5,485 bases of DNA from Desulfuromonas sp. SDB (GTDB taxonomy: Bacteria; SDB-A), in NCBI GenBank assembly GCA_001412365.1, contig LKUE01000064.1:1-5485 (forward strand). Reading direction: 5' to 3'. How positions within the stretch are numbered: the stretch's first letter is position 1; every line of letters starts with the position of its first letter. The position numbers were made by a program, and so were the translations under genes. Of this stretch, positions 1-5,485 are shown piece by piece. A model generated the notes under the pieces. That model was not told the DNA's origin and did not search any database. It saw nothing but the letters and a program-made list of their open reading frames with translations.

Positions 1-70
1 AAATATTTTTTTTATACTGTTCCGCAATATAGCTTGGAATATAGTTCTTTTTTAAAAATTCTTTAGACAA
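1..70 (-). CDS. 5' end of an unidentified gene, truncated by the window edge
   Basis: An open frame begins with TTG at 70-68 and stays open for 23 codons to the left edge. The peptide begins MSKEFLKKNY and continues IPSYIAEQYKKNI, a hydrophilic, Lys/Tyr-rich sequence that looks coding rather than random. The start was chosen because a GGGAG Shine-Dalgarno-like sequence lies 9 bases upstream and no ATG or GTG is available in this frame after the stop at 95-97. The gene starts 43 bases after the stop of the UPF0173 hydrolase gene with no visible terminator between them, so the two may be co-transcribed. I do not recognise the family from 23 residues. The TTG start is inferred. Confidence 0.45.
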   Translation of the reverse strand, partial: MSKEFLKKNYIPSYIAEQYKKNI

Positions 71-79
71 TGATAGTAT

Positions 80-84
80 CTCCC
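80..84 (-). promoter_or_regulatory. Ribosome binding site GGGAG for the left-edge gene
   Basis: On the minus strand GGGAG is followed by nine bases and then TTG at 70-68. This is the main support for reading the left-edge frame as a real gene with a TTG start. Confidence 0.4.
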
Positions 85-113
85 GGTATGGTCTTTAGCT
101 AATCAAAACAGTG

Positions 114-800
114 CTAAATTTCTATCATATCTCCGCTTTTCATAACTACACATTTTACTCCAATCCCCTCCACCAGCTGCTTAAATTTTTGAGGATCAGC
201 TTTTATCACCGGAAATGTATCGTAATGTATAGGAATTACCTGTTGAGGTTTGAAAATCTTAACTGCCCTGAACGCATCTTCCACATCCATTACAAAATTA
301 CCTCCAATAGGGAGGGCAGCCAGATTGATATTTTCTTCCTGCAACAGCTGCATTTCAACGGTTAAACCAGTATCTCCAGCATGATAGAATTTAACTTGCT
401 CTGCTTCTATCAGAAATCCTCCCGGATTACCTCCATAAATAATCTTATTATCTTCAAATATTCCCGATCCATGAATTGCCGGAGTCATCTTTACTTTGCC
501 AAAATCAAACTTATGTTTTCCCCCAAGGTGAAGGGGATGAACTTTTTCCAGTCCTTTAGTACTTAAATAATTACAGATTTCAAAATTAGCAATTACCATT
601 GCCTTTTCCCTCCGGGCAATACTTACACAATCTCCAATATGATCACTATGTCCGTGAGTAATCAAGATATAATCTATACCGGTTTGCTCATCAGCGCTGG
701 CATTGGTTTGAGGATTTCCGGTGAAAAAAGGATCAATCAATATCCTGCAGTTCCCGGTTTCAAGTTTAAAAGTTGCATGTCCCAAAAAATAAACTTTCAT
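114..800 (-). CDS. UPF0173-family metal-dependent hydrolase (metallo-beta-lactamase fold)
   Basis: This 228-residue protein has the usual length and motif order of the UPF0173 (YtkL-like) metal-dependent hydrolases, a branch of the metallo-beta-lactamase superfamily. Visible features are the N-terminal GHATF (H8), the metal-binding HGHSDH (H49, H51, D53, H54), H110 in AIHGSG, D143 in HAGDTG and H192 in PIHYDTFP. These are the ligands expected for a dinuclear, probably zinc, site. No signal peptide or membrane segment is seen, so it should be cytoplasmic. The substrate is unknown for the family; a hydrolytic activity is inferred from the fold. The ATG at 798-800 is preceded by AGGAG at 806-810 with five bases between, an ideal ribosome site. 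It lies 112 bases beyond the EIIA-like fragment and probably has its own promoter. It ends in TAG. The family assignment is firm, the function is not. Confidence 0.93.
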   Translation of the reverse strand: MKVYFLGHATFKLETGNCRILIDPFFTGNPQTNASADEQTGIDYILITHGHSDHIGDCVSIARREKAMVIANFEICNYLSTKGLEKVHPLHLGGKHKFDFGKVKMTPAIHGSGIFEDNKIIYGGNPGGFLIEAEQVKFYHAGDTGLTVEMQLLQEENINLAALPIGGNFVMDVEDAFRAVKIFKPQQVIPIHYDTFPVIKADPQKFKQLVEGIGVKCVVMKSGDMIEI

Positions 801-856
801 CTTATCTCCTTATGCTTTTAGATAAATACATATTTGAAATAGTTTTCCCAGGATAA

Positions 857-884
857 ATTATATAATAATCTTGAGGACACTAAA
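857..884 (-). promoter_or_regulatory. Candidate sigma70-type promoter for the UPF0173 hydrolase gene
   Basis: A perfect minus-strand TATAAT occupies 862-857. The best -35 match is TTTAGT at 884-879, 16 bases upstream, which matches TTGACA at only three positions. Transcription would start near 850 and give a leader of about 50 bases containing the AGGAG ribosome site. The region is AT-rich, so a chance -10 match is possible. Confidence 0.4.
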
Positions 885-912
885 AGGCATTGTTAATCAT
901 TCTAATAATAGC

Positions 913-1239
913 TTATTCAGTTCTTTTTTCTAAAATAACCTCCTTAACCAATTCTTCCATGTTTTTGCTATTTACATCAATACAGTCTTTTTTAGTTCTA
1001 AACTGGTAGGCCAGGAAGGACAGCGCTTTCAGATGTAAATTGGGGTTAACCGCAGGAGAGATCAATAATATGACAATTTTAGCTTTATCTTCCTGCTTAC
1101 CCCACTTAAACGGCTGGTCAGATAATCCCACAATGATCAACACTTCCCTTATCCCTCTTATTCGGCAATGGGGTAAAACCACCCCTTTGCCCAATACCGT
1201 TTCCTGTAGATCTTCCCGGCTACAGGCTAAATCAATCAC
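913..1239 (-). CDS. PTS EIIA type-2 (fructose/mannitol-like) domain, C-terminal part, in frame with the antiporter after a TAA
   Basis: The 108-residue frame begins with GTG and holds most of an EIIA domain of the fructose/mannitol class. SREDLQETVLGKGVVLPHCR (residues 7-26) matches the family pattern RE-x-T-x-G-x-G-x-PH. R8 and H24 are 16 residues apart, the same spacing as Arg49 and the phosphorylated His65 of E. coli EIIA-Mtl. H69 in NLHLKALS sits where the second conserved histidine falls. EIIA domains are normally about 145-150 residues, and here the first strand and helix are missing. They are found in the same frame at the end of the antiporter (residues 446-478), just before TAA at 1245-1243. 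Only one codon (ATA) separates that stop from the GTG. There is no strong Shine-Dalgarno close to the GTG, so if translated this part needs reinitiation or readthrough. It may be a nonfunctional remnant, though its catalytic residues are intact. It ends in TAA. Confidence 0.75.
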   Translation of the reverse strand: MIDLACSREDLQETVLGKGVVLPHCRIRGIREVLIIVGLSDQPFKWGKQEDKAKIVILLISPAVNPNLHLKALSFLAYQFRTKKDCIDVNSKNMEELVKEVILEKRTE

Positions 1240-1242
1240 TAT

Positions 1243-1245
1243 TTA
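1243..1245 (-). other. In-frame TAA splitting a CPA2 antiporter-EIIA fusion
   Basis: On the minus strand the codons read GAT CAA TAA ATA GTG ATT GAT TTA. The frame is unchanged across the TAA and is open for 109 codons after it, encoding the remainder of an EIIA domain whose start lies before it. With any sense codon here the product would be about 588 residues. A single base change such as CAA, GAA or AAA to TAA would explain it. TAA is used as an ordinary stop by dapF, the radical SAM gene and the EIIA frame itself, so a variant genetic code is not a good explanation. Confidence 0.8.
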
Positions 1246-2679
1246 TTGATCCGGAATCATTTTCAGGGTCTCTCCAATTTCAGCTAATCTGGAAATTGCA
1301 TTTTGTCTATTCTCCACCTTGGACAATCTTACAAATTGCAAATTTGAAAGTTTAAACGGAAATTCATTTTCGTCAATCCCATTATCTCCAACCACCTTGT
1401 CTTCTCCTAATGTCCAGGACTGCCATTTTTTTAAAGTTCTTTCAGTTAAGATGACACCAAAAATTGAAAAAATAACAATGGAAGGAATTACAATATCTGC
1501 AATCATAACTCCCTGCTCTCCCAGGGCAGTAGCAACAAAAGCAGCTTCAACCGCAGCTACCCCCGCCTGAGGAAACATCAGCAGAGGAACACAGTGAATT
1601 ATTTTCGCATCTTTTTTAACCAGTCGAAGCGCCCAGCTGGTGGCAAATAGTTGAGCAGTGAATCTGGTGACCAAATAAATTCCAATGGGTGGAAGCAGGT
1701 GCAGCTGAAATTTTGAAAAATCCATTTCAGCGCCAATTAAGGCAAAAAACAATAAATTTACTGCCGGCATTACATTTTCAATTTTCAATGAATCGAAGAC
1801 AATATTGCCGGAAAAATTAGCAATAAGAGCGCCAGCCAGAACAATTGCCACCAGAAAGGGGAGGTGCAATATAATTGCAATTCCCGTAGTTACTGCAACT
1901 ATTCCTGCCACGGTTAAGAACATCTCCACCGAAGGGGTGGGATGTTCTGAAAGTAATCTTACAAGAAAGGAATCTTGGGACTTAACCTCTTCATCCAGAG
2001 GAACCCGGTTGATTAACAGCCATAAAACCACAAAGGCAATTATTCCCAACAAAATGGCAGAAACAAGATCTTTAGAAACGGTAACTATAGACATTCCCTG
2101 CTGATTATTAAAAAATTGGATTAAAAAAGAAAACAGAATTACAGTGGCAAGATCAATCAGAGCCATTACATTTCCTAATAAATTCCTAATCTCTCCTTCT
2201 ATCTCATACCGATTCATCAAGGCAAAGGTAATGGCAGGGGCAGGGGCAATGGCAATAGAGGCGATAATTAAAGAGAAATATATGTTTATTCCACTTCCGG
2301 GAACAAGTTTTCCGTAGAGATAAAAACAAACTCCCACCAAGGCAAAAGTTACGGTTATATTAATAATAGCTATAACAAAAACATCTTTAAAAACCCTTTT
2401 TAATCTTTTAAAATGCAACTCTTCACCGATACCAAAGGCAATTAAAGCAAGAAAGGCAAATATGATAAATTGAAAGGAAATTAACTCTCTGGAATATAAA
2501 CGGTCTAGGCCGATATCCAGTCTTCTTAAAATAAATAAAGCAACCGGCCCCACCACAATTCCCCCCATGATCTGCCCGATAACCTCACCAACCTGAAGTC
2601 TTCGGGCAATTCGACCCCCTAAATTCCCTGCTAAAATCAGCAAACCAAGGGTCAGAATATGTAATCCGTACCGGCTCAA
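1243..2679 (-). CDS. CPA2-family cation:proton antiporter with the beginning of an EIIA domain at its C-terminus
   Basis: This 478-residue inner-membrane protein belongs to the monovalent cation:proton antiporter-2 (Na+/H+ exchanger, Kef-like) family. About twelve hydrophobic segments span residues 5-411. Family signatures are GEVIGQIMGGIVVGP (31-45), APAPAITFALMNRY (145-158), the ion-site segment NVMALIDLATVILF (170-183) with D176, FFALIGAEMD (311-320) and FPQAGVAAVEAA (369-380). The residue before D176 is Ile, where electrogenic antiporters usually have Asp and CPA1 members Asn. It presumably exchanges Na+ or K+ for H+; the ion cannot be read from sequence. After a short charged linker, residues 446-478 resemble the first strand and helix of an EIIA domain, cut by the TAA and continued downstream in frame. 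The start is TTG at 2679-2677, overlapping the TPR gene's TGA as TTGA. No in-frame start lies between it and an upstream TGA, and no clear Shine-Dalgarno is seen, so translational coupling is likely. Confidence 0.9.
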   Translation of the reverse strand: MSRYGLHILTLGLLILAGNLGGRIARRLQVGEVIGQIMGGIVVGPVALFILRRLDIGLDRLYSRELISFQFIIFAFLALIAFGIGEELHFKRLKRVFKDVFVIAIINITVTFALVGVCFYLYGKLVPGSGINIYFSLIIASIAIAPAPAITFALMNRYEIEGEIRNLLGNVMALIDLATVILFSFLIQFFNNQQGMSIVTVSKDLVSAILLGIIAFVVLWLLINRVPLDEEVKSQDSFLVRLLSEHPTPSVEMFLTVAGIVAVTTGIAIILHLPFLVAIVLAGALIANFSGNIVFDSLKIENVMPAVNLLFFALIGAEMDFSKFQLHLLPPIGIYLVTRFTAQLFATSWALRLVKKDAKIIHCVPLLMFPQAGVAAVEAAFVATALGEQGVMIADIVIPSIVIFSIFGVILTERTLKKWQSWTLGEDKVVGDNGIDENEFPFKLSNLQFVRLSKVENRQNAISRLAEIGETLKMIPDQ

Positions 2680-3446
2680 TTCAGAGAATCATGAAGATGG
2701 TATTGTAATGAATCAGCAATAAAATTATAATGGCGCGCCCGGTTGGTATCACCACCCATTTCAATAACCCGGGCATATGATCGCCACAACTCTGGATTGT
2801 CGTTCTCCATTTCCAGCAGCTGTTCATACACCTCTGCTGATTTTATTAAATCAAACTGCTCTTCATAAACGGTGGCTAAAGAATACAAGAAGCGAAGGTT
2901 ATGTGGCTCTCTTTCAGTTAAAATCACTAATAAACTTTCCGCTTCAGTAAAATGCTTTCTTTGCTGTTGAAGCAGCGCCAATGCAAAAACCCCATAATTG
3001 TCCGCTGAATTAATCTTCAACGCCCGTTTATAATGCAGTTCCGCGGAGTTTAGATCCCCCAGCCGCCTCATTACATTTCCCATAGACAGATTTGCCTGAT
3101 AATTCAGGGAATCAAGCTGAAAAGCCCGGTAGGCATAACTATAAGCTTGTTCCACGTCTCCTCTGGCTAGCAATACCCGGGCATATAATCCATTTGCTTC
3201 AGCTGAATCAGGTTGCTGACTGATAGCAATATCAATAAAATGTTCTGCCCGATCAAGATGTTGATTAAAATCATCTTGATCAATTGTTTCCAAAGTAGTT
3301 CTATTTAACATCTCCAGTTCTACTTTTGCTGAATCAACTGCTGCGGAATAAGAAATTTTATGGGTACAGTTAACCATCAGCGCCAATATAATCAATGCAA
3401 TTAATTTAAAACTTTGGAACAGAAATTTCACCTGTGAAAACTTCAT
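2676..3446 (-). CDS. TPR-repeat protein, probable lipoprotein
   Basis: The 256-residue protein starts with a basic, then hydrophobic segment (residues 1-26) ending LALMVNC, so Cys27 may be the lipidated residue of an exported lipoprotein. Asn at -1 is outside the usual Gly/Ala/Ser, so simple membrane anchoring is an alternative. The rest is helical: five tetratricopeptide repeats at a regular 34-residue period, roughly 81-114, 115-148, 149-182, 183-216 and 217-250, with typical small and aromatic TPR positions (for example YARVLLARGDVEQAYSYAYR and MGNVMRRLGDLNSAELHYKR). TPRs mediate protein-protein contacts, so it is likely a periplasm-facing scaffold, partner unknown. I chose the ATG at 3446-3444 because GGAG lies six bases upstream; an in-frame TTG at 3458 would add four residues but lacks this spacing. 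The gene overlaps the dapF 3' end by 41 bases in another frame, and its TGA overlaps the antiporter start, indicating one operon. Confidence 0.85.
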   Translation of the reverse strand: MKFSQVKFLFQSFKLIALIILALMVNCTHKISYSAAVDSAKVELEMLNRTTLETIDQDDFNQHLDRAEHFIDIAISQQPDSAEANGLYARVLLARGDVEQAYSYAYRAFQLDSLNYQANLSMGNVMRRLGDLNSAELHYKRALKINSADNYGVFALALLQQQRKHFTEAESLLVILTEREPHNLRFLYSLATVYEEQFDLIKSAEVYEQLLEMENDNPELWRSYARVIEMGGDTNRARHYNFIADSLQYHLHDSLN

Positions 3447-4248
3447 AAGCTTCTCCAATGAGGTAAATATTATCGTTTCTTTGCTCCACCTGTAATTGTC
3501 CCCCTCTGTGCTTAAGTGTAATTATATTACCGGCTTTATTTAATTTGTTCAAAACCACAAACACGGCAACCGACGCAGAACCGCAAGATAAAGTTTCGCC
3601 TACTCCTCTTTCATATATCCGGTGAACAATTTGATTTTTTTGAATTTCAACAATTGAAAGGTTTACTTTTGAAAAAAATTCATGTTCTCTGCACGCTTTA
3701 AAATAAAAGCCGGAAAGATCAAACTCATTAGGTTTCTCCACAAATAGAACCGCATGAGGATTACCAACACTAACTAAGTAAAAATCATAAAGATGTTCAC
3801 CAATAACCAGATTAGCGGGAAAGGATTCAGCTTCAGGCAAATAGGAGGGAAGTTCTGAAGAAGTCCGGGGAAAGGAATTTTCAATAATTCCGGTTTGTCG
3901 GTTTAATGAAATCAGGTTTGAGTAGCTTAAACCCGCATCTGTTTCAATTATAATGGAATGAGATGGGTTTAAATATTTATAAATATACATAGACAAGCAT
4001 CTTAATCCGTTTCCACAAATTTCCGCCCTGGAGCCATCCTGGTTTAATACCACCATTCGGTAGGGAGATTTATTTCCAGAAGTTAAGGTAATTATACCAT
4101 CTGCCCCTATAGATTTTTTTCTTTGAGCAAGGGATCCTTGGCTTAAATAAGAGAGAAAGAGATCGAACTTCTGATAGACAACCTTATTTGTTATCAGGTC
4201 AAAAATAATATAATCATTGCCCAATGCTTGATATTTATAGAATTTCAT
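3406..4248 (-). CDS. dapF: Diaminopimelate epimerase
   Basis: DapF interconverts LL- and meso-diaminopimelate in the cytoplasm, supplying meso-DAP for peptidoglycan and lysine. The 280-residue length fits the family (274 in E. coli). The two-base cofactor-independent active site is present: Cys78 in EICGNGLRC and Cys222 in GVGETLSCGSAS. Substrate-binding residues expected from E. coli DapF are also visible: N11 (ALGND), N69 (LNQDGS), N163 (VGNPHAV), N196 (KVNLS) and E213-R214 (YERG). The usual second loop CGSG or CGTG is CGSA here, a mild divergence. The C-terminus EVFTGEI is typical, with a short extra tail SVPKF in the part overlapping the TPR gene. The ATG at 4248-4246 has no Shine-Dalgarno sequence, and a promoter -10 element ends nine bases upstream, so the mRNA may be leaderless. 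It heads the dapF-TPR-antiporter run and has no other lysine genes beside it. Confidence 0.94.
   Translation of the reverse strand: MKFYKYQALGNDYIIFDLITNKVVYQKFDLFLSYLSQGSLAQRKKSIGADGIITLTSGNKSPYRMVVLNQDGSRAEICGNGLRCLSMYIYKYLNPSHSIIIETDAGLSYSNLISLNRQTGIIENSFPRTSSELPSYLPEAESFPANLVIGEHLYDFYLVSVGNPHAVLFVEKPNEFDLSGFYFKACREHEFFSKVNLSIVEIQKNQIVHRIYERGVGETLSCGSASVAVFVVLNKLNKAGNIITLKHRGGQLQVEQRNDNIYLIGEAYEVFTGEISVPKF
3453..3456 (-). promoter_or_regulatory. Ribosome binding site GGAG inside dapF that sets the TPR gene start
   Basis: Minus-strand GGAG is followed by AAGCTT and then ATG at 3446-3444. The six-base spacing is near ideal and makes this ATG preferable to the TTG at 3458-3456. The site lies within the dapF coding sequence. 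Confidence 0.7.
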
Positions 4249-4257
4249 ACCATATCA

Positions 4258-4286
4258 ACTATAATGAATGTTTCACTTAAAATCAA
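4258..4286 (-). promoter_or_regulatory. Sigma70-like promoter for dapF, giving a leaderless or near-leaderless mRNA
   Basis: Minus-strand TTGATT (4286-4281, four of six matches to TTGACA) and TATAGT (4263-4258, five of six matches to TATAAT) are separated by exactly 17 bases, in the short gap after the radical SAM gene. Only nine bases lie between the -10 element and the dapF ATG, so transcription should begin at about 4252-4248, at or within a few bases of the start codon. This agrees with the absence of a ribosome site. Confidence 0.5.
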
Positions 4287-4308
4287 ATCATTGTAACTGC
4301 TAATAAAT

Positions 4309-5268
4309 TTAATCTCTCCTAAATCGGCAGCCCCCTCTGCAAACTTCGTATTCACTGCAGATAAAACAACTTTGTTTAAGATTAAAATCTCGAAATAATT
4401 TTACTTGTTCTGCCGATGAAAGTTCAGAAAAAGATTGTCTGAACAGACTGCCCAGAACTACCTCGCTCTGTTCACATATTCTAAGATTTCCCTGGGGATC
4501 TATTACCCACTTAATAAAGCCGCACAAACATGAAGAAAATTTCAAGTGTTGATATTTTTTCAAGGGATAAATACAGGGTTCAAGGGGTATGCCTAAATTT
4601 ATGGGAATGTTTAATTTTTCACTTTTCATCTCAGCAAGGTCAAGCAGTTTAAAAATTTCACTTTTTTGTAAATTTAATTTTTTCTTATTTTTCAATCCTC
4701 TGCCGGTGGGAGTAAAAACATTAATGGTAACTGAATCTGCCCCGCAGGCAGTGGCAAAATCAATAAGTTCATTTACCTCTGAATAATTCATCCGGCAGAC
4801 CATTATGGAAACATTAAAGATCACATTGAATTTTTTTATAAACGAAAATATTTTCATTATTTTTTCCAGGTGATCAAAACCGGTCAGGTTCTTATAGTTT
4901 GTCTTGTGCAATGACAGAAGAGAAATATCTAGGTGACTCAATCCCGCTTGCACTAAGCAGTCTAATTTTTTGGGGGTTAGCAAAAGTCCATTGCTGACTA
5001 AATTTACTAAATCCGAGTAGGTTTTTAAGATTTCGACTACTTCCACTATGTCTGAATAGAGCAGCGGTTCTCCCCCGGTAAGAGCAAAACCGCTGGGTGA
5101 AACTTCCTCATTTATCTTTTTAAACAATTGATCAATTTCACCTATGGACAGAGCCGATGAGCATTCAGGAATTGAACAACTCTGCTCATGCCAGACATTG
5201 TAGCAAAAAATACAATTTAGATTACATTGTGAGGTAATTTCAAAAACGAGGAAGGGTCTCTTCATCAT
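4309..5268 (-). CDS. Radical SAM protein with a SPASM-like C-terminus lacking the last cysteine
   Basis: The 319-residue protein opens with the radical SAM [4Fe-4S] motif CNLNCIFC (C15, C19, C22) followed by TGGEP (64-68), which contacts S-adenosylmethionine. It should cleave SAM to a 5'-deoxyadenosyl radical in the cytoplasm. The C-terminal part follows the SPASM auxiliary-cluster pattern: C249-x10-G260-x4-C265, then C301-x2-C304-x5-C310-x3-C314 (CFICSEYEVCRGGC). The seventh SPASM cysteine is absent because the protein ends at D319. C247 in SCLCG, or the early pair C31/C36, might provide an extra ligand. SPASM proteins often modify peptides (PqqE, AlbA, anSME) but some act on other substrates, and no precursor peptide is visible nearby. 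The start is the first of two adjacent ATGs (5268 or 5265); neither has a Shine-Dalgarno. The gene ends in TAA 60 bases before dapF with no terminator between. Family assignment is firm; the substrate is unknown. Confidence 0.9.
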   Translation of the reverse strand: MMKRPFLVFEITSQCNLNCIFCYNVWHEQSCSIPECSSALSIGEIDQLFKKINEEVSPSGFALTGGEPLLYSDIVEVVEILKTYSDLVNLVSNGLLLTPKKLDCLVQAGLSHLDISLLSLHKTNYKNLTGFDHLEKIMKIFSFIKKFNVIFNVSIMVCRMNYSEVNELIDFATACGADSVTINVFTPTGRGLKNKKKLNLQKSEIFKLLDLAEMKSEKLNIPINLGIPLEPCIYPLKKYQHLKFSSCLCGFIKWVIDPQGNLRICEQSEVVLGSLFRQSFSELSSAEQVKLFRDFNLKQSCFICSEYEVCRGGCRFRRD

Positions 5269-5278
5269 TTATTAGTTT

Positions 5279-5284
5279 AATATA
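5279..5284 (-). promoter_or_regulatory. -10-like element just upstream of the radical SAM gene
   Basis: Minus-strand TATATT matches TATAAT at five of six positions and ends ten bases before the first ATG, the same arrangement as at dapF. No recognisable -35 is found at 16-18 bases, where the terminator hairpin lies. If real, it would give a leaderless or nearly leaderless message, consistent with the missing ribosome site. It overlaps the AT-rich tail of the terminator, so chance is a serious alternative. Confidence 0.25.
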
Positions 5285-5320
5285 AAAATTTCAAGGCAGG
5301 AATAAGTATTCCTGCCCTGA
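5284..5320 (-). terminator. Rho-independent terminator (or attenuator) before the radical SAM gene
   Basis: Read on the minus strand, 5320-5308 pairs with 5303-5291 to form a 13-base-pair stem whose core is GGCAGGAAT / ATTCCTGCC with a four-base loop, followed by AA and five U residues (5288-5284). On the minus strand the one imperfect position is a G-U wobble; on the plus strand the same position is an A-C mismatch and no U-tract follows. It therefore acts in the minus direction. It ends transcription arriving from beyond the right edge, or attenuates the radical SAM gene, whose ATG begins 16 bases after the U-tract. Confidence 0.8.
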
Positions 5321-5329
5321 CAAAATATT

Positions 5330-5358
5330 ATTTAATACTTTTATCTATAAAGTTTCAA
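5330..5358 (-). promoter_or_regulatory. Possible weak promoter upstream of the hairpin
   Basis: Minus-strand TTGAAA (5358-5353, five of six to TTGACA) lies 17 bases before TTAAAT (5335-5330, four of six to TATAAT). A start near 5323 would place the hairpin at the very 5' end of a message for the radical SAM gene, making it an attenuator or 5' stabiliser rather than an upstream gene's terminator. The region is AT-rich and such matches arise easily by chance. Confidence 0.22.
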
Positions 5359-5463
5359 GCACAAGTGTCTGGGATCATCTACTTATATCCCCTTACTATA
5401 CGCTTGTCTTTTTTCTTCGCCTGCTAAATCTTCAAAGATTCAGTTTTTTTAACATTAATTAGC

Positions 5464-5485
5464 TGAATTCCGATTAAGGAATTCA
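5464..5485. repeat. Inverted repeat of 8 bases with a 6-base spacer at the right edge
   Basis: TGAATTCC at 5464-5471 and GGAATTCA at 5478-5485 are perfect inverse complements separated by GATTAA. No U-tract follows in the minus direction, so a terminator is unlikely in that direction. It could be a dimeric regulator site or part of a larger structure cut by the window edge. Each arm contains GAATTC, itself a palindrome. No gene can be assigned to it within the window. Confidence 0.45.

Follow-up and report, generated by a model that had tools for sequence, protein, structure and literature searches.

Why does a gene that reads as a cation antiporter joined to an EIIA domain carry a stop codon in the middle of that domain? 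The question is raised by contig LKUE01000064.1 of Desulfuromonas sp. SDB (assembly GCA_001412365.1), of which we analysed positions 1 to 5,485, here called the window. An earlier note, made from the letters of the window, had seen the interrupted fusion and had offered four options without choosing among them: a recent nonsense mutation, an assembly or read error, readthrough of the stop, and reinitiation just downstream of it. The evidence described below favours a recent nonsense mutation or an error. Readthrough and reinitiation as evolved devices are unsupported, because the stop is not present in any relative, no tRNA reading TAA was found, and no Shine-Dalgarno-like sequence precedes the GTG at which translation could resume.

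A single in-frame stop breaks the fusion gene

Reading the minus strand from 2679 to 913, we found that the frame does not shift at the internal stop: past the TAA at 1245-1243 it continues through ATA (1242-1240) and GTG (1239-1237) on to the TAA at 915-913 (Table 1). The coordinates and the unshifted frame given in the earlier note were thus correct, as was its GTG three bases past the stop. That an antiporter-EIIA frame is broken here by a single internal stop is confirmed, and is a real observation.

Table 1. Features of the interrupted gene and its upstream neighbours (window positions).
Feature	Position	Strand	Remarks
Antiporter part, residues 1-478 of the frame	1246..2679	-	TTG start at 2679; includes the first ~32-35 EIIA residues
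N-terminal EIIA piece left on the antiporter, residues ~447-478	1246..1341	-	beta-1, alpha-1
In-frame TAA	1243..1245	-	first turn of EIIA helix 2
C-terminal EIIA piece, 109 sense codons	916..1242	-	Arg488 and phospho-acceptor His504; incomplete EIIA alone
GTG	1237..1239	-	3 nt past the TAA; after the stop, the sole start codon ahead of the catalytic Arg
TAA closing the original fusion frame	913..915	-	
TPR lipoprotein-like gene	2676..3458	-	stop overlaps the antiporter start (TTGA)
dapF, diaminopimelate epimerase	3406..4248	-	PF01678, 3.3e-37; upstream operon neighbour

The antiporter part matched PF00999 over residues 20-411 (1.4e-26; 93.7 bits against a cut-off of 26.2). The top cation-antiporter match in NCBIfam was the CPA2 subfamily model TIGR00932, yet at 41.6 bits it fell below the cut-off of 238.3, so we call the protein CPA2-like rather than a certified CPA2 member. 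A profile search linked the membrane part to NapA (E 3e-4), and Foldseek on a structure model returned NapA and PaNhaP. The ion-binding aspartate of the DD/ND helix, D176, is invariant in 16/16 sequences. Residues 175-176 (window 2152-2157, minus strand) are ID in the window lineage, VD in its two siblings and TD in one further relative (L118), where most antiporter-EIIA relatives have DD; by analogy with other CPA antiporters, the replacement of D at 175 by I or V may mark a shift from electrogenic to electroneutral exchange.

The gene order dapF, TPR lipoprotein, antiporter is common to the window and to two other genomes of the same phylum (G001 and G003), and the TTGA overlap of stop and start makes it probable that the antiporter is translationally coupled to the TPR gene. 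The TPR lipoprotein-like ORF itself shares up to ~50 bases with the end of dapF (window 3406-3458), and the arrangement is similar in G001 (L105) and G003 (L106). Downstream, these siblings carry an overlapping large gene (L105 4610-8293 and L106 1078-4689) that reads as adenylate-cyclase-like/ATPase/TPR; in the window a 112-base gap (801-912) is followed by a gene for a metallo-beta-lactamase-fold hydrolase. The operon tail of the lineage with the stop differs in this way from that of the siblings.

The stop falls inside the EIIA domain

PF00359 (PTS_EIIA_2) matched the minus strand from 1332 to 934 with 61.1 bits (cut-off 27) and one TAA inside the match. In the read-through protein it covered residues 451-582, corresponding to positions 9-141 of the 144 in the profile (57.7 bits), and in the standalone 3' ORF positions 46-141 only (9.4e-14, 52 bits); the domain is complete in one chain only when the TAA is read through. 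The earlier note had claimed EIIA similarity in the antiporter tail, residues 446-478. The match that starts at 1332 bears this out, and the similarity before the stop is not a chance one, since this stretch aligns to the intact orthologues through the stop column, ungapped there.

To locate the stop in the fold we modelled the read-through protein with AlphaFold2 from 16 sequences (15 relatives; mean pLDDT 75.6, EIIA mostly 76-91), and this model superseded a poor one from 4 sequences (pLDDT 55.8); an asparagine at the stop position served as a stand-in for modelling only. The model places beta-1 at 447-452, alpha-1 at 458-471 and alpha-2 at 478-491, with the stop position, 479, in the first turn of alpha-2, so that neither piece holds the whole domain. 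The active-site pair Arg488 and His504, which is invariant in our alignment (A2), lies entirely after the stop. The first EIIA helix before the stop and the Arg and His after it are as the earlier note had described. Its spacing of 16 residues between the two also stood, but its comparison with EIIA-Mtl did not, the sequence being nearer to EIIA-Ntr/PtsN and EIIA-Fru. The PDB profile search gave E values of 2e-14 to 2e-11 for PtsN vs 1.5e-5 for MtlA, the top NCBIfam match of the EIIA part was TIGR00848 (fruA), and Foldseek on the EIIA part of the model returned the PtsN structures 3urr, 2a0j and 1a6j (TM-score by target 0.68-0.74). A PtsN match was also obtained for the C-terminal piece. When the post-stop piece was compared with a plasmid collection, the only records found were two from Listeria, both distant IIA matches.

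Relatives carry the fusion as one open frame

Two of the three other genomes of the same phylum, G001 and G003, carry the orthologue in a single ORF each (587 and 586 aa), with 58% and 55% identity over the antiporter part, and the ATG of the orthologues aligns with the TTG start in the window. An open fusion of 601 aa is present in a KSB1 genome (G004), and 12 further MAGs, from Auribacterota, Sumerlaeota, Omnitrophota, KSB1, Zixibacteria, Spirochaetota and other lineages, have one too. In all, 16 loci were found in other lineages; L123 runs off its contig, L124 and L126 are distant matches only, and L116 is the same gene as that of G004 and was counted once. The set compared was of 15 distinct full-length relatives. 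A search of genome contigs with the single protein confirmed no close relatives.

The open fusions (G001:C62, G003:C10, L012, L111-L115, L117-L122 and L125) have frames of 586-622 aa, share the domain order and the conserved Arg488 and His504 with the window, and align through the stop column, where they differ from it in having a sense codon. This codon, at an ungapped column, encodes N, M, E or, most often, G, and the residue is variable even within the family of the window gene itself. None of the 15 has a stop or a gene boundary at that column. The orthologue comparison that the earlier note had proposed thus gave a sense codon in every case, and its view that the gene is interrupted within the EIIA domain, at no natural boundary, agrees with 15/15 relatives being open and fused. 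Separate antiporter and EIIA genes with their boundary at the stop were considered and rejected, every relative being fused and open. Because all relatives compared are open fusions, one chain is the ancestral state, and the stop is peculiar to the window genome among those seen.

No decay is seen after the stop

In leave-one-out comparisons with the other 15 proteins, the window kept 9/10 of the near-invariant residues after the stop, among them the near-universal His504 and Arg488, as against 9/9 in G001 and 9/10 in G003. Columns with 80% conservation gave the same picture (18/37 in the window, 18/38 in G001 and 17/38 in G003), and the Pfam EIIA score of the read-through window protein lies between those of its intact siblings (52.7 and 61.7 bits). 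Codon usage of the post-stop part was better in frame than in every other frame, and its identity to the nearest orthologues was 38-41%. The earlier note had argued against old decay from two observations, the retention of key residues and the absence of further stops. The latter is weak evidence alone: in neutral simulations at 10% divergence it had a P of 0.28, but no new stop together with retention of all 18 conserved residues a P of 0.0075.

With no decay after it, the stop is either of recent origin or a wrong base; its youth would follow solely from this lack of decay. A young mutation and an error are both compatible with the pattern, and so, equally, is a piece still under selection. 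In the survey of Belinky et al. 2021 (PMC7918605), bacterial in-frame stops were common and mostly short-lived, on the time scale of population polymorphism, and many were argued to remain under purifying selection.

The genetic code and the assembly

Across four families in the genome of the window organism, PTS_EIIA_2 (12 matches), ABC_tran (38), Radical_SAM (28) and Response_reg (34), internal stops were found in 1/112 domain matches, the sole case being the window gene. Among 40 tRNA genes (Rfam matches and ARAGORN) none had a TTA anticodon. Within this 98.7% complete assembly, the 111 clean domains and the lack of such a tRNA leave reassignment of TAA or tRNA suppression unsupported. A genome-wide reassignment of TAA to an amino acid, which would account for this one interrupted gene only, is further opposed by two window genes that terminate with TAA, dapF and the radical-SAM gene, and we regard it as next to impossible; a change in the genetic code was rejected on the 112 domain matches and the tRNA set. 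A tRNA-SeC gene with anticodon TCA is present (L103 137-230) and the organism probably makes selenoproteins; this is irrelevant to TAA. The assembly consists of 433 contigs with 3.9% contamination, and no second copy or strain contig of the region was found in it.

A recent nonsense change is the best explanation

The locus has what is seen in genes disrupted by a nonsense change, namely a single stop, an intact frame, no decay and intact orthologues. We therefore favour, with somewhat better than even confidence, a recent, lineage-specific nonsense change, either a fixed mutation or a strain variant, in an antiporter-EIIA fusion that is ordinary in other respects. The reality of the base is something we infer, and the main rival is that an artefact of sequencing, assembly or consensus calling put it into the MAG and that the organism has an intact fusion. 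One wrong base would suffice, the assembly is fragmented and contaminated to the extent given above, and the region is present in one copy only for cross-checking; the post-stop part without decay and the relatives all open at the stop column would be expected as well. Against it, the 111 other domain matches are clean and there is no base-quality or coverage pointer to an error. A sequence error fits the evidence equally well and the two are poorly separable; taken by itself, we consider the artefact rather unlikely.

Two further readings would give the interrupted gene a function. In one, ribosomes reinitiate at the GTG and a 108-residue piece docks on the beta-1/alpha-1 remnant, restoring a split, regulated EIIA. 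The position of this GTG, with no other in-frame start ahead of Arg488, suits that reading, as do the conserved residues kept after the stop, and coupling does occur in the operon, the antiporter itself seemingly starting at the TTGA overlap without a Shine-Dalgarno. The sequence upstream of the GTG, gaaaatgattccggatcaataaata, however, has no clear Shine-Dalgarno, vs some other window genes that have one, no relative is split at the stop column, and the small piece lacks beta-1 and alpha-1 and with them part of the core. We consider this two-chain form improbable, and slightly more so the fuller proposal that in this lineage the fusion has become two translationally coupled chains, the EIIA of the antiporter being assembled from the tethered beta-1/alpha-1 and a phosphorylatable 108-residue fragment. 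In the other reading, readthrough would add a small share of full-length, regulated antiporter to a predominant short form. The frame and the key residues are intact after the stop, and the 102-nt stretch beginning at the stop has a more stable fold than its shuffled versions (z -2.58), a figure from one uncorrected sequence that was not used as evidence, the first stem alone giving z -0.38. Two stem-loops lie within 100 nt past the stop (window 1159-1226, minus strand). Programmed readthrough would involve a conserved stop and a means of reading it; the stop is conserved in none of the 15 relatives, which leaves no conserved recoding site, and neither a TAA-reading tRNA nor such a code was found, no suppressor being among the 40 tRNA genes. 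TAA followed by A is, moreover, generally a strong terminator. Readthrough is accordingly, in our view, very improbable, and the chance that either reinitiation or readthrough is functional is small. We did not set it lower because in-frame stops, though mostly short-lived, are common and often under purifying selection (PMC7918605).

On the favoured reading, a recent nonsense change, the window gene would be the local orthologue of a widespread NapA-like CPA2 antiporter with a C-terminal PtsN/FruA-like EIIA, in which TAA has recently replaced a sense codon where EIIA helix 2 makes its first turn. Given a real stop, the main product would be an antiporter of 478 residues that keeps the membrane domain and loses a foldable EIIA, and hence the PTS sensor; PTS phosphorylation would then probably control its transport in an altered way or not at all. 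The 3' piece would either go untranslated or be produced in small amounts through reinitiation at GTG 1239.

The fusion compared with known systems

Genes for HPr (GIHARPA) and EI (GGKTSHAVI) lie side by side in the genome of the window organism (L104). In the intact relatives, the EIIA histidine would receive phosphate by way of EI and HPr, and cation/H+ exchange would be adjusted by the state of the tethered domain; the intact protein thus probably acts as an antiporter to which a PTS sensor is tethered, and the action of this sensor on transport is something we infer. Free EIIA-Ntr controls K+ systems, for example KdpD, which is bound by unphosphorylated EIIA-Ntr (PMC9239096), and by this parallel, cation/proton exchange in the fusion may be under the direct control of the PTS phosphorylation state. 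The genome also carries three other intact fusions (L107 1689-3521, L108 1353-3209 and L109 234-2090), each of a transporter that reads as amino-acid-permease-like with a C-terminal EIIA, and joining EIIA to transporters seems to be a habit of this lineage. Stand-alone antiporters adjoin stand-alone EIIA matches at C382 3283-4790 and C380 10921-12976, so fused and unfused arrangements coexist. A limited search of open-access text found no publication on a CPA2-like antiporter-EIIA fusion. The lasting point, whatever the origin of the stop, is that such an antiporter is joined to a PtsN/FruA-like EIIA, with conserved active-site residues, across many uncultured phyla.

The membrane domain is alike, by sequence profile and fold, to that of the Na+/H+ antiporter NapA of Thermus thermophilus (4bwz, 5bz2), which is without an EIIA domain. 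PtsN/EIIA-Ntr (1a6j, 3urr, 2a0j) and EIIA-Fru have the EIIA fold and the Arg/His active-site spacing in common with the window protein; unlike it, they are a free-standing regulator or a sugar-PTS subunit, untethered to an antiporter and uninterrupted. The in-frame stops collected by Belinky et al. 2021 (PMC7918605) are, as in the window, single nonsense codons in an otherwise conserved frame, but those were required in two or more species, whereas the window stop is in one genome only.
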